Part shown: piece by piece, positions 3,385 through 10,424 of the stretch
Position numbering within the stretch: the stretch's first letter is position 1
Layout: each line of letters opens with the position of its first letter
Assembly (NCBI GenBank): GCA_016871655.1
Contig: VHCR01000037.1
Coordinates: forward strand, 1-10,519
Source of the DNA: Verrucomicrobiota bacterium
Lineage (GTDB): Bacteria; Verrucomicrobiota; Verrucomicrobiia; Chthoniobacterales; UBA6821
Length of the DNA stretch: 10,519 bases
Reading direction: 5' to 3'
The notes under the pieces: model-generated
What the model was told of the DNA's origin: nothing
What the model saw: the letters and a program-made list of their open reading frames with translations, nothing else
Databases searched by the model: none
Position numbers and translations under genes: made by a program

Positions 3385-3420
3385 AGGTTACAGGTTACAG
3401 GTTGCAAGTTACAGGAAAAA
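3385..3420. repeat. Heptamer tandem repeat, junction copy 3
   Basis: On the plus strand AGGTTAC, AGGTTAC, AGGTTGC, AAGTTAC (3385-3412) is followed by AGGAAAAA (3413-3420). The copy starts, in the coding direction, directly after the TAA of the upstream membrane glycosyltransferase gene (3421-3423) and ends 7 bp before the ATG at 3377. It fills 36 of the 43 intergenic bases. Unlike copies 1 and 2 it does not extend the upstream reading frame. Confidence 0.87.
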
Positions 3421-4737
3421 TTACTCTTCCCCTACTAACCATTCGCGTTTTACTTCCACAAGTTTTCCTTCTTCAATTAATCGATCAACGGCATCTGCCG
3501 GAAGTTTTTTGGCTTTGATTCGTTCTTCGACGTTGAAGGCATCAACAACAAAGGGCTTTCCAGCGCGATAGGTAATGTACGATTCGCAAAAAACATCGAC
3601 TGGCGAGGTGCGCACTTCCTCTATGAGTTGCTGCATTTCTTGTTCCTCTTGCTTGATGGCAGCGCGGCCTGAAGAGGAAAAAATTTGTGTAAAAGAATAG
3701 AGATTGGAAGAAAAAAGAAAGGGCCCAATTAAAAAAATGAGCCAAAGTATTTGTAAGAGCTCTCTTTTTTGATCGTAAAGAAATTGAAACCCAACTCCCA
3801 TCGCAATTGCTACAATAATCACCAAATCAAACTGAGCATTTACAAAAACGCCGCTTCCGAGACGTTGTAAAAATCCTATTCCAAGAGCCATGATCATCAT
3901 AACCGTAATCCATTGAACAGACTTTTTCTCAGTCGTGCTCGATACCATAAAAATCCAAAGTATCATTCCAATGCATAGACCTCTTAAATCGTGAAGAGCA
4001 TCAATCGCTTTTGATGGCATCCAAGAACGTGGCGTTAAAAAGTTATGAAAAAAGTCTACACCATAGCAGCTGTAGCAACAGATCAAGCCAATCACAACAA
4101 GCGCTCCAGAAAAAAAAAGACTAAACCAAAGGGCCCTCCAGCGCTGCCACAGTGCGAGCCCTAGCATCGCAGAAAGCGGAAACGTAATGATGTTGTGCTT
4201 GAAAAAACCAGCTATCACCATGATGAGAAAGGGAAGCCAGTAGCTTTGATCTTTTTTTATTGCCTGCAAAAAAAGAAAAAAACCGATCAGCATAACCGCT
4301 TGAGCTAAGAGCTGAGGATCATTCACTCCAACATACCAGCGAAAGAAGAGGCACATTGTTGCCAAAAAATAAGCGCTTCCCACGACAGCGGCCTGTAACG
4401 ATCCGCCAAAATGTCTAACAATTTTTCCAATAAGAAAAGTGATGATCGCAATAGCAAGCAAGGAGAGCAACCTTCCAGCAAAAATCGGATCTCCTACAAT
4501 TTTTCCAAACTCACCAACAGTATAAAACGAAAGCGGTGGATAGTTGTTAGTAATCAACTTATCTAAACTTGGATAAAGAGCCATCTTTCCCAGTGCCGCA
4601 TCAGCAAAGAAGGCATTCCACCCTTCATTCGTATTGATCATGATAGGCAAGAAAGCTCGATAGCATGGCCAAAGAAAAGCTAAGCCTGCAATCAGAGCCA
4701 ACAAAAAAACTAATCCAGATATTATCTTTTTTGCCAT
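3421..4737 (-). CDS. GT-C-like polytopic membrane glycosyltransferase (PMT/ArnT-like)
   Basis: A 438-aa polytopic membrane protein. An N-terminal transmembrane segment (about 7-25) is followed by a large periplasmic-type loop with INTNEGWNAFF (about 34-44, acidic E38) and NNYPPLSFY (about 64-72), then a run of further hydrophobic helices, and a soluble C-terminal tail rich in E, K and R from about residue 365. An acidic residue in the first loop followed by a YPP motif is the usual pattern of GT-C enzymes of the dolichyl/polyprenyl-phosphate-mannose type. Such enzymes take sugars from polyprenyl-phosphate donors on the outer face of the inner membrane. Start is ATG 4737, 20 bp after the preceding stop, with only a weak GAGA upstream. 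A T9 run in the coding strand (plus 4110-4118) lies in a hydrophobic segment. The family level is confident; donor and acceptor are unknown. Confidence 0.75.
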   Translation of the reverse strand: MAKKIISGLVFLLALIAGLAFLWPCYRAFLPIMINTNEGWNAFFADAALGKMALYPSLDKLITNNYPPLSFYTVGEFGKIVGDPIFAGRLLSLLAIAIITFLIGKIVRHFGGSLQAAVVGSAYFLATMCLFFRWYVGVNDPQLLAQAVMLIGFFLFLQAIKKDQSYWLPFLIMVIAGFFKHNIITFPLSAMLGLALWQRWRALWFSLFFSGALVVIGLICCYSCYGVDFFHNFLTPRSWMPSKAIDALHDLRGLCIGMILWIFMVSSTTEKKSVQWITVMMIMALGIGFLQRLGSGVFVNAQFDLVIIVAIAMGVGFQFLYDQKRELLQILWLIFLIGPFLFSSNLYSFTQIFSSSGRAAIKQEEQEMQQLIEEVRTSPVDVFCESYITYRAGKPFVVDAFNVEERIKAKKLPADAVDRLIEEGKLVEVKREWLVGEE

Positions 4738-4757: not shown

Positions 4758-6944
4758 TTATTGAGCAGGCCAATGATAAACACGATAGCCACCGCTTTCA
4801 AAAACAGCACTATTTTTGAACGAATCGGGCCAGGCTACCTTCGTCTCAGGCCTCAGTAAATACCAAGCAATTGGATGCGTCTTGGTAAACGTTTTCAGTT
4901 CTTCTTCTGTCCTCATTTGCTTAAAAGATTCCATTTCTTTTAGTCGCTCGGTTATTCGAGGATCAGGATTTTTGATCATGACATAATTTTGTCGTTCTGA
5001 AAGACTAGAAACAACGCACAAAGGATCAACTTCTGAACCTTGAATAATCTCATGAGAATGACTCTGCTGCTTAATAAATTCAAGGGACTCAATCATAGCA
5101 ACAGGAACAGCATTGCCTTTTAACGTCATGTTCCATATTGGCATTGTTTGCAACCCATGCGCAAAAGTTAGCGGGAGAAACAGGCTTCCACCTAACAGAA
5201 GTGCAGCACCAAGTCGTCCTAAAATAGTTTTTGGAAGTTGATCTCTCCAGAATAAAAAATAAAGACCCCCTGTCGTCCAAGTCACCACTGCAAAATAAAC
5301 CCACATAAGCGGTCGATTCAAAAGTTCTTCAGGATCTGCTAAGTGTCTTGGATCCATCGAAAGTCCCATCGCCATGACTAAGTAATTTACAATCATCCAA
5401 AGTGGGAAAGACCAAACGATTGCATCAACTTTGCGTCGCAGAAAAAAAAGAACAAAAATAATCCCTACCCCCCAAAATCCTAACGTACAAAAATAAAGCA
5501 TGCTTCCAGCAAGCAGATGAAACCAGGGAAAAGAGAGTGGATGGAGCCACAAATGTTCCAGCAAAAAAGAATGCAGAACTCCGACATCGGTCCATTGCGA
5601 AAGCACCTTACAATATTTGTGAATGCCTCCTCCATTGAGAGCAATGAGAGGAACCGAAGGAGAACGTTGTGAAAGATGAACAATAAAAGTAAAAAAAAGC
5701 GTTCCAGCCCCTGCCACAAAAAACTTTTTCCACTTTTCACATTGTAAAAAAAAGAAACAAGGAAAGAGCAGCAAAATAAAAGCATTGGCAACGAAAAACT
5801 GCGCTTTAAAAATCAGCATTACTCCTAAAAAAAACCAACTCGTAAAAATTAAAGTTAGTTTTTTTAATCGACTTCTTTCAAAACTCGCTGCTGACGATGA
5901 AGTACTAGGAGCTTCCGGCGCACAGCGGCTGAGTTTATATTTAATACTCGATGACGCGAGCACCGGAGCGACGCCGCAATTCGCGTCAGCAGTAGAGTTT
6001 TGAAAGAAGTCGCGGCATCCCTGAATCATGAAAAGCCAGGCAAGAGCCCCGCATCCAAGTCCATAAAAGCTTGCAGGGCCAACATGGAGATGAAAATGAT
6101 AACTGAGAAATTTTATTTGAAATCCTTGATAATAGGCATCGGGCAAAAAAACCACAGCAACCGTTGCCGCCACTGCTGGCCAACCTTTCCAAAAAGCATG
6201 AGCCAATGTGAACCCTGCCAATCCTAAAAGAAAAACTCCTACTGGAATTAAGAAACAGGAAAAAAGAACAAGGGCGCTGACTCCAGTTAAAGAGACAACT
6301 GCTGCAGGCATCAAATAACTTGCATAGTGATAAAAACTAAGAGGCATACCACTCATGTAGACAGCCGATATTTGATGACCCCCATCAGCTTGAGCAAAAG
6401 CACTAATAAAACGTGCATGTAAAAAACTATCCCCCCAAATAGGAAAATAGATCATTCCATTTTCATGAAGCGGAACGCTCAAAGGATCAGAGCACAATAA
6501 TGTCGCTCCAATTCCAGAAAGCAAAAGCGCGAACACGCCTGGCAATTGCTCTTCAAAAGTAGAAGCAATTTTTTGTTGATAAAAAAGTGAAAGAAAAAAT
6601 CCCAACAAACCAATTCCTGCAAGCAGAAAAAAACCATACTGCACCGTCATTAACCTCAAAATAACTAAGACAAAAAGAAGTGTATTAAAAATAAAAAAGC
6701 CGAATAGCAGTTGAATAGGACGTTGCAATGAAACACCTTTAGACAATGGAAGCAGCGGCAATAAAAAAACGCCATACCCAAGAGAAGCTAAGCTCATCAA
6801 CGCGAAACAACCAATCGAAGCCATCGAGCAGATGCGCCCTCGCTCCCAAAGCCAATATTGAGAAAAGCCGGTGAAGCAAAGCCATGTAAATGTGAGAGTC
6901 AAGAGCGATTGAACTCTTGGACGATGAAATAGGAATCTCAACAT
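4758..6944 (-). CDS. Large polytopic membrane protein, putative GT-C-like, carrying an in-frame palindromic insertion
   Basis: A 728-aa integral membrane protein with about a dozen or more hydrophobic segments and a soluble C-terminal domain from about residue 620 (EFIKQQSHSHEIIQGSEVDP) to the end. An extracytoplasmic-type loop holds PIWGDSFLHARFISAF (about 168-183), where D172 could be the catalytic acidic residue of a GT-C fold, and a second loop contains SYHFHLHVGPASFYG (about 281-295). The C-terminal HPIAWYLL and YRVYHWPAQ resemble ends of membrane glycosyltransferases. I infer a polyprenyl-linked sugar transferase or other polysaccharide membrane component; a specific family is not recognised. 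Residues 312-358 (with parts of codons 311 and 359) come from a 144-bp palindromic element; without it the protein is 680 aa and runs GCR-LKKLTLIF. The insert is rich in S, A and P, with no membrane helix, in a loop before a transmembrane segment. ATG 6944 lies 7 bp after the previous stop. Confidence 0.7.
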   Translation of the reverse strand: MLRFLFHRPRVQSLLTLTFTWLCFTGFSQYWLWERGRICSMASIGCFALMSLASLGYGVFLLPLLPLSKGVSLQRPIQLLFGFFIFNTLLFVLVILRLMTVQYGFFLLAGIGLLGFFLSLFYQQKIASTFEEQLPGVFALLLSGIGATLLCSDPLSVPLHENGMIYFPIWGDSFLHARFISAFAQADGGHQISAVYMSGMPLSFYHYASYLMPAAVVSLTGVSALVLFSCFLIPVGVFLLGLAGFTLAHAFWKGWPAVAATVAVVFLPDAYYQGFQIKFLSYHFHLHVGPASFYGLGCGALAWLFMIQGCRDFFQNSTADANCGVAPVLASSSIKYKLSRCAPEAPSTSSSAASFERSRLKKLTLIFTSWFFLGVMLIFKAQFFVANAFILLLFPCFFFLQCEKWKKFFVAGAGTLFFTFIVHLSQRSPSVPLIALNGGGIHKYCKVLSQWTDVGVLHSFLLEHLWLHPLSFPWFHLLAGSMLYFCTLGFWGVGIIFVLFFLRRKVDAIVWSFPLWMIVNYLVMAMGLSMDPRHLADPEELLNRPLMWVYFAVVTWTTGGLYFLFWRDQLPKTILGRLGAALLLGGSLFLPLTFAHGLQTMPIWNMTLKGNAVPVAMIESLEFIKQQSHSHEIIQGSEVDPLCVVSSLSERQNYVMIKNPDPRITERLKEMESFKQMRTEEELKTFTKTHPIAWYLLRPETKVAWPDSFKNSAVFESGGYRVYHWPAQ
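5869..6012. repeat. 144-bp palindromic element inserted in frame in a coding sequence
   Basis: The ends are perfect 18-bp inverted repeats: CGACTTCTTTCAAAACTC at 5869-5886 and its complement at 5995-6012. Pairing continues with CTGCTGACG (5888-5896) against 5984-5992 after a 1/2-nt bulge, then GCTTCCGG (5911-5918) against CCGGAGC (5963-5969) with one bulged base, and GAGT (5931-5934) against ACTC (5946-5949) near the apex. All pairs share a centre near 5940, so the whole unit has dyad symmetry. Its length is 48 codons and it keeps the host gene open. It is visibly richer in CG dinucleotides than its surroundings. No transposase and no flanking target duplication is seen. This matches the general form of Rickettsia palindromic elements that encode peptides inside host proteins; whether it is related to them is not known. 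Confidence 0.88.
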
Positions 6945-9681: not shown

Positions 9682-10293
9682 CTATTCTTCCTTTTTTACA
9701 AATGCATTCAATATTTTTTCAGCCTGCATAAAAGAAACGGTACAATCGTTCATCTCTTTTAAAATATCGCTAAAGTGTGGTTTTTGCCAGGCAAGAAAGG
9801 GAGACGTCGTCCATGTTTTGACCTGACTCAGTTGAATAAAAATATCAATTGCCGGCTTATGTTCAAGAGGCATAGCCCACCATTCGTGCCAGGCCAATAA
9901 TCGGTCGTAAGAGGATTGATGATAAATCATGAAGTGTGCCGCAAGAGGAAGAACTCCTTCAACCACGGTAAGATCAGAGGCTAAAGTCGCAATTTTTTTG
10001 AGAGGGTGTATGAAAATCACTCCTCCAAAAAAAACATCCCAATGCTCTTGTGTTTGCTCGAGGAATGCAGCAACTAACGGCCACTGTTTCATGGCTTCAC
10101 AAGGAATGGCGTCATCTTCTAACACCATCACATAAGGCCAACCTTTTTCTTTAGCCCGAGCAATCAGTGTGAGATGACTCAAAGTGCACCCGAGAGCACC
10201 CCGTTCATGTTGAATCGCCGAAAAGCGTTCACAATCGATGCCAAACGGTTTAAAAGCTCGTTTCACTTCCTTAAAAAATTGGTAGTGCAACAA
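9682..10293 (-). CDS. Family 25 glycosyltransferase lacking the N-terminal strand (probably 5'-truncated)
   Basis: This open frame is a close paralogue of the glycosyltransferase at 6952-7632: FKEVKRAFKPFGIDCERF aligns with FQEVQKAFQPYGIECERY, LGCTLSHLTLIARAKEKGWP with the same block, LEDDAIP (58-64) with IEDDCVP, and TSPFLAWQKPH with PSPFIAWQKPH. It lacks the first ~10 residues, including the family-defining VINL strand. Only seven codons precede the TTG at 10293 before an in-frame TGA (10315-10317), and neither they nor the other two frames encode that strand. The first in-frame ATG falls at about residue 55, just before the EDD motif. A GAGG lies 19 nt before the TTG, too far for good initiation. 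The catalytic EDD and the rest are intact, with no internal stops, so loss is either recent or the frame is translated from a non-ATG codon. Probably a 5' truncation; activity doubtful. The next gene starts 5 bp downstream. Confidence 0.75.
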   Translation of the reverse strand: MLHYQFFKEVKRAFKPFGIDCERFSAIQHERGALGCTLSHLTLIARAKEKGWPYVMVLEDDAIPCEAMKQWPLVAAFLEQTQEHWDVFFGGVIFIHPLKKIATLASDLTVVEGVLPLAAHFMIYHQSSYDRLLAWHEWWAMPLEHKPAIDIFIQLSQVKTWTTSPFLAWQKPHFSDILKEMNDCTVSFMQAEKILNAFVKKEE

Positions 10294-10384
10294 TTCGTCT
10301 GTAAATTGGTTTCCTCAGGTCTTTTTGATTTCAGTACTTCTGTCTCTTATTAGAGGTGGAGTTGTCAGATAACTGGAGGTAGGC

Positions 10385-10420
10385 ATGAAGCCTTACGAGC
10401 ACCCCATGGGGTGCTCGTAA
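10385..10420 (+). other. Possible 11-codon leader ORF overlapping the palindrome
   Basis: On the plus strand GGAGG (10375-10379) stands 5 nt before ATG 10385, ideal Shine-Dalgarno spacing, followed by MKPYEHPMGCS and TAA (10418-10420). Most of the frame is inside the 36-bp palindrome. This arrangement resembles a leader peptide over an attenuator hairpin, or the start of a gene interrupted by the palindrome. The frame is too short to exclude chance. Confidence 0.25.
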
Positions 10421-10424
10421 GGCT
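10389..10424. repeat. Perfect 36-bp palindrome
   Basis: The 17-bp arm AGCCTTACGAGCACCCC (10389-10405), the central AT, and the exact complement (10408-10424) form an uninterrupted perfect palindrome centred on CCATGG. It is GC-rich against an AT-rich background. Neither side is followed by a T-run: plus continues CGGCCAAGAG and minus continues TCATGCCTACC. It is therefore not a standard intrinsic terminator, though a strong RNA hairpin or DNA cruciform could still block transcription. It lies 96 bp upstream of the truncated family-25 gene and could equally be a dispersed repeat or a protein-binding site. Confidence 0.9.

Follow-up and report, generated by a model that had tools for sequence, protein, structure and literature searches.

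A probably MITE-like palindromic element lying in frame in protein genes of one Chthoniobacterales genus

KNOWN PALINDROMIC ELEMENTS WITHIN GENES

Coding palindromes have been described above all in Rickettsia (PMC10969869, PMC2229807). The RPEs found there are hairpins of about 105 to 150 bp that fall into several families within the genus and lie in frame in conserved genes as well as between genes (PMC10969869, PMC2229807); their target duplication is given as unknown in the relevant passage of PMC2229807. Other elements come close in one respect or another. RUP is small, with terminal inverted repeats that are the ends of IS630-Spn1 (PMC2229807). The 107-bp form of the Correia element can be fused in frame to ORFs, whereas the 155-bp form, which carries stops, stays intergenic (PMC2229807). 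QMITE1 of Coxiella burnetii combines a conserved core with variable ends and direct repeats of 2 to 3 nt (PMC5896051). REP and REPIN sequences are palindromic and dispersed, with some inside genes (PMC3733652), and nematomorph mitochondria carry perfect inverted repeats of up to 284 bp inside coding genes (PMC6649704).

The element described here was noticed in a stretch of 10,519 nt of bacterial DNA, referred to below as the window. How does it compare? Like the RPEs and their Wolbachia relatives, it is a palindrome in the range of about 100 to 150 bp that lies in frame in protein genes. It differs from them in four respects. (i) It belongs to another phylum, with records from Chthoniobacterales and Verrucomicrobiia rather than Rickettsiales. 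(ii) Target duplication is seen. (iii) One of its arm types is the end of an IS. (iv) Coding on both strands has been measured. With RUP, Correia/NEMIS, and ERIC it shares small size, terminal inverted repeats, and target duplications (PMC2229807), but many of its copies sit in genes that are conserved and in part essential, and a single core is combined with several arm types. QMITE1 is longer, at 300 to 400 bp, and its in-frame cases are mainly in hypothetical proteins (PMC5896051), while REP and REPIN are built of 20- to 40-bp units and depend on Y1 enzymes, at seven loci of which no significant match of the present element was found. The nematomorph palindromes resemble it as inverted repeats in coding genes and differ in being mitochondrial (PMC6649704). 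No coding palindrome in Verrucomicrobia was found among the open-licence literature matches listed, in which the nearest mention of the phylum concerns REPs in Opitutus (PMC3733652).

With matches in the hundreds, empty sites, target duplications, and, for one arm type, a matching IS end, the mode of movement becomes testable, and conserved enzymes with an insert of about 49 residues, together with their insert-free relatives, form a natural set for asking how proteins gain segments.

THE COPY IN THE WINDOW

The window corresponds to contig C37 in a draft assembly of 1.80 Mb with a completeness of 86.7%. Its minus strand carries a gene for a polytopic membrane protein (4758..6944) of 728 codons, and the element occupies positions 5869..6012, 144 bp in all, without interrupting the reading frame. 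The ends are perfectly inverted, as originally described: the left outer arm (5869..5886, plus strand), presumed to be a terminal inverted repeat, and the right outer arm (5995..6012, plus strand) are 18 nt each and 100% complementary. Between them lies a conserved core (5887..5994, plus strand) with covarying helices, as judged by pair counts in a 44-sequence alignment, in which every sequence has GCT at 5887-5889 and AGTAG at 5991-5995. The copy belongs to arm subfamily I and scores 160.5 bits against the covariance model described below. When folded, the 144-nt strand reaches -73.4 kcal/mol, compared with a shuffle mean of -39.7 (sd 3.7; z -9.2), and none of 200 dinucleotide shuffles folded as well. 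The plus strand of the window is the one that favors G-U pairs.

Read in minus frame 1, the element encodes residues 312-359 of the host protein (DFFQNST...ERSR). Without the 144 bp, the sequence at the junction is TGC CGA TTA AAA, which reads GCR-LKK with the arginine codon intact, exactly as anticipated. The contrast drawn in the original prediction between a hydrophilic insert and a hydrophobic host also holds, with a mean hydropathy of -0.30 over the 48 residues and +0.63 over the remainder. An AlphaFold2 model of the host, of modest quality (mean pLDDT 63.1), places residues 322-350 in coil with helices at 290-321 and 351-378 on either side, and pLDDT falls below 50 at residues 316-350; the next hydrophobic segment after the insert spans residues 360-378. 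As modeled, then, the insert region is a disordered loop, in agreement with the earlier guess. At E 1e-5 the host protein matches no family in Pfam or in NCBIfam, a library that includes an RPE1 model; the comparison with RPEs was made by protein profile.

A DISPERSED FAMILY IN ONE GENUS

The original prediction had supposed that the palindrome belongs to a mobile family, and other copies, empty sites, and target duplications all support this. A BLAST search of the window's own genome gave 32 matches. A covariance model was then available from 44 aligned copies (49 seeds, with four dropped and one more excluded at alignment), and at E 0.01 per genome it finds 358 matches, dispersed over six genomes of a single Chthoniobacterales genus and counted among the best 150 candidates per genome. 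These genomes, designated G000 to G005, hold 58, 28, 25, 7, 128, and 112 matches, respectively. In an order-wide sample under stricter filters, 6 of 147 genomes had matches, and all six belong to this genus, 1 of 39. G031, from another family of the order, not among the six positive genomes and perhaps outside the sample, gave a single weak 43-bp BLAST match (E 1.4e-5). The element pattern also occurs in the named MAG records Chthoniobacterales bacterium JAIEQF01 and Verrucomicrobiia bacterium JAPLTJ01 (Lac Pavin), a comparison in which the window's own genome may have been excluded. Phage and plasmid collections gave no element match at E 1e-5.

Detailed counts below come from sequence stretches around loci (L-numbers), picked around copies among the best 150 listed of the 358, and the fractions describe that sample rather than all 358. 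The stretches contain 168 model matches. Removing six (opposite-strand duplicates in L141, L108, and L156, an end fragment in L133, a fragment in L189, and L181:9615) and adding the window copy leaves 163 copies for analysis.

EMPTY SITES AND TARGET DUPLICATIONS

Is the 48-residue segment an insertion? Of 19 database homologues of the host, 12 were aligned; the protein itself, two partial sequences, and four that matched mainly by the insert or by short stretches were excluded. The 48 residues are missing from 11 of the 12, among them homologues with as little as 32% identity, and present in one close relative. Exactly 48 residues are lacking in the G005 orthologue and in a G004 paralogue, while the G004 orthologue carries a 48-residue insert at the identical position. 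Distant homologues thus do not share the residues, and other copies exist, the reverse on both counts of what would speak against the original prediction. With residues 310-361 as the query, 12 proteins were recovered. Besides the host protein itself and its G004 orthologue there are ten, including an isoleucyl-tRNA synthetase (source name), two proteins of the glycogen phosphorylase family (PF00343), a homoserine dehydrogenase, and a class V aminotransferase. Some proteins have more than one insert: a class V aminotransferase-family protein (P0016) has two with different arm types, and a 745-codon ORF of G004 (L172:486-2720) contains two element copies.

An empty homologous site was found in the sequence at hand for 29 of 59 in-frame copies. 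The net gain is 49 codons at 14 of these sites, 48 at 5, 42 to 47 at 8, 60 at 1, and 76 at 1, so that at 10 of the 29 it is neither 48 nor 49. A gain of 49 codons is the most frequent because insertion also duplicates 3 bp (144 + 3 bp). The window copy, with no target duplication, adds exactly the 48 codons claimed for it, though the family's usual gain is 49.

The duplications were examined in 161 of the 163 copies. Arm subfamilies I and II together have exact 3-bp duplications in 21 of 72 copies (I, 13 of 55; II, 8 of 17), compared with 3.3 expected after re-pairing, and none of 5,000 shuffles reached 21; the other 51, including the window copy, have none. The remaining subfamilies have 3 in 89, with 2.0 expected. 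The duplicated triplets in subfamily I include AAT (4), ATT (3), and ACT (3), from a table in which ties were resolved slightly differently, and those in subfamily II are TCA (5), TTA (2), and TGA (1). Where 14 filled and empty sites were aligned as DNA, clean TCA and TTA duplications were apparent at two and a likely AAT at a third; at the others, the window's site among them, the duplication is unclear or changed. In subfamily III, TA lies on both sides of 10 of 11 copies at one of seven offsets (inside the model bounds); the figure is 1 of 19 in IV and 2 of 3 in VI, while in V it is 3 of 17 at one offset and 4 of 17 at another. Groups of IS5 have ANT, TNA, or TA targets. Empty sites and target duplications together show that the element inserts.

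READING FRAMES AND HOST GENES

An ORF that spans the element with at least 100 flanking codons is present for 68 of the 163 copies. Of these spanning copies, 59 have a length that is a multiple of 3, as have 32 of the 95 others. Only two of the six frames, one per strand, account for 62 of the 68: minus frame 1, the frame of the window copy and the family's most frequent coding frame, with 40, and plus frame 0 with 22 (the other frames total 6). Gene dwelling is also a matter of arm subfamily, spanning ORFs being found for 38 of 55 copies in I and 15 of 17 in II, compared with 0 of 12 in III, 1 of 19 in IV, 3 of 17 in V, 0 of 3 in VI, and 11 of 40 others. In 31 of the 53 gene-dwelling copies of I and II both favored frames are open together, compared with 2% of shuffles. 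Since each strand of the element often has one open frame, either orientation can yield a readable fusion, and since the gene-dwelling subfamilies duplicate 3 bp, an insertion of 144 + 3 bp preserves the frame. The proposal of an in-frame coding-repeat family like that of Rickettsia is supported, and coding on both strands adds to it.

Which genes are hosts? Host names come from 21 distinct host proteins taken from the 59 in-frame copies, 18 of them with a family match. Those matched include SecA, IspH, HolA (DNA polymerase III delta), homoserine dehydrogenase, NuoG, and PEP carboxylase, as well as UDP-galactopyranose mutase, a penicillin-binding transpeptidase, and a PD-(D/E)XK transposase-like protein. 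In the window's own genome, undecaprenyl diphosphate synthase is a host. From open frames in conserved genes such as these, we infer that the fusions are translated.

ARMS, CORE, AND A LINK TO IS5-TYPE ELEMENTS

The outer arms vary from copy to copy, but in concert. Complementarity over the outer 11 nt, measured in 146 copies, is 89% when the two arms of one copy are compared and 44% when arms of different copies are; in 41 of the 146 the outer arms pair perfectly. The core motifs AGTAG and GAGCACC are retained in 126 and 128 of the 146, respectively. One core bears several arm types, a feature that, like the IS match described next, goes beyond the original observation.

One arm type matches the end of an IS. 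Arm AGAGGGTGTCTTGAAA shares 16 identical nt with the left end of an element at G000:C20 that carries DUF4096 and DDE_Tnp_1 domains, and so the arms of this type are IS ends. The adjoining element at that locus is a covariance-model match (E 4.7e-21). The IS5-type element there (L206:190-1244) has its right end apparently replaced by the core element; the pair has TAA on both flanks, by our reading, and the transposase reading frame is split. This IS end is seen again at G000:C67 and G004:C25.

For arms I and II, no inward pair at IS distance was found in the transposase loci or in the six genomes, all incomplete drafts. A partner may be missing because ISs often lie at contig breaks and the drafts are incomplete; even so, the missing IS for types I and II, the window's type included, is the main gap in the model. 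In the stretches, ten arm queries gave seven arm pairs at IS distance, none with a linkable transposase and several ending in copies. Several candidate partners were set aside. DDE_Tnp_1, DUF4096, and Y1 transposase loci mostly have different ends, and the ends of DDE_3 (IS630-type) elements resemble a nested 165-bp repeat (described below) rather than this element.

The family shows the features of a MITE, being small, devoid of a transposase, bounded by terminal inverted repeats, and present in many dispersed copies, with target duplication in I and II. We file it as MITE-like, functioning like the RPEs. It is probably a nonautonomous transposable element of MITE-like type, open to translation where it has inserted. 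A conserved hairpin-forming core lies between complementary outer arms, which would act as terminal inverted repeats moved in trans by resident IS5-type DDE transposases, presumably a different one for each arm type. ISs with ends RGACTTCTTTCAAAA or GAACCTGTCTTCAAA would fit this model. Insertions with closed frames or net lengths not divisible by 3 would be purged from genes, and the added peptide would be a tolerated disordered segment, not a functional domain.

A bolder version of this model, tentative and somewhat less than an even bet, holds that the structured core has swapped arms repeatedly and been mobilized by different IS transposases. Arm complementarity would then be kept up by hairpin-templated correction, in which one arm serves to rewrite the other, and the two-strand-open 144 + 3 bp forms would be favored because only they can live in genes. 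If true, this would amount to a protein segment that spreads itself and keeps the frame without being bound to a single transposase.

FOLD, CONSERVATION, AND OTHER EXPLANATIONS

How strongly is the fold conserved? In a sequence-only alignment, 94.4% of paired cells are complementary, compared with 78.7% after shuffling and no more than 42.1% when partners are slid. Two-sided changes occur in 29 of 45 pairs, with a covariation score of 0.424 against 0.137, figures for which the structure was derived from the same alignment and the score includes the effect of copy relatedness. Arm exchange would by itself leave the outer helix with two-sided changes, yet helix 2, which lies inside it, has them in 14 of 19 pairs. 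On the plus strand, G-U outnumbers A-C by 72 to 32 outside mostly-G-U pairs. In a model-fitted alignment the ratio in the outer arms is 16:8 and 27:4 for the two host orientations and 68:12 outside genes. It is possible, on this sequence evidence, that the plus strand acts as RNA or single-stranded DNA.

These properties bring to mind a REPIN-like spread as a folded single strand, by a Y1 (RAYT) transposase or through an RNA intermediate, in place of IS5-type DDE transposition. The strong, covarying fold and the G-U excess, which in the outer arms holds in either host orientation, speak for such a route, and Y1_Tnp is found in the copy-rich genomes (two in G000, two in G004, and one in G005) and in none of G001 to G003. 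On the other hand, the inner part of plus-coding copies has a G-U:A-C ratio of just 23:21, one arm type is, as mentioned, identical to an IS5-type end, and the best element match among seven Y1 loci, of which this genus contributes five, is nonsignificant (E 0.33). To our knowledge, Y1 enzymes make no target duplications, and 3-bp duplications exist here. Single-strand spread is therefore unlikely.

Much less probable still is that the element acts as a structured RNA or mini-intron and is excised from the mRNA, so that the peptide never appears in the host protein. Covarying helices, conserved unpaired motifs (AGTAG and GAGCACC), and copies inside essential genes would suit it, but frame and length are constrained as if translated, which excision would make needless; both orientations are coding (40 minus and 22 plus), and Rfam has no family match up to E 1 for window positions 5500-6400. 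Finally, that the 48 residues are an ancient part of the protein, lost in other lineages, is scarcely credible: the G004 orthologue does carry them at the same position, but 11 of the 12 aligned homologues do not, and isoleucyl-tRNA synthetase and glycogen phosphorylase are examples of unrelated proteins in which related peptides lie.

Returning to the MITE-like element, are its copies neutral passengers once inserted? The orthologous copies at the window's site are identical at 131 of 144 positions, compared with 65 to 87% in flank bins, and two G004/G005 pairs match at 141 and 142 of 144, one of them with 30 to 60 identical bases adjoining. Orthologous copies can therefore exceed their flanks in conservation, which is unlike a neutral passenger, although others do not (in one case 94 of 142 positions are identical where the flanks are at 85 to 89%). 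Conversion tracts account for some of the high-identity cases, and constraint may contribute. Copies that G002 and G003 carry in PD-(D/E)XK transposase-like genes (L183:2376-2519, L184:3849-3992, and L190:6236-6379) differ at 2 to 4 of 144 positions; among them, diverged pairs fall from 96 to 100% identity near the element to about 70% beyond 60 to 100 bp, a conversion-tract-like pattern.

OTHER REPEATS

Further repeats accompany the family. A 165-bp palindromic repeat with ends TATAGTGTATTAAATTGAAAAGGGCA is nested in two element copies (L024:1554-1718 and L026:1577-1741, at G000:C39 and C91), and its ends resemble those of the DDE_3 (IS630-type) elements at L216 and L219. An 81-bp dispersed repeat occurs at 27 places in the stretches, including L158:17527-17607, and lies in spanning ORFs at 5 of them. 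In the G004 orthologue of the host protein it accounts for 27 extra residues, and when inside element copies it gives rise to 225-bp forms.

The window itself contains several more. A 25-mer at 10282-10306 is identical in L212 and L272 and in L212 marks the break of an IS5-type transposase gene; another IS, interrupting a glycosyltransferase-like ORF (9682-10293), may end here. A 30-nt repeat rich in AGGCTACAGG/AGGTTACAGG recurs at successive gene boundaries (1547-1576, 2472-2501, and 3392-3421), and near the contig end, at 10389-10424, there is a perfect palindrome of 2 x 18 bp without a spacer.
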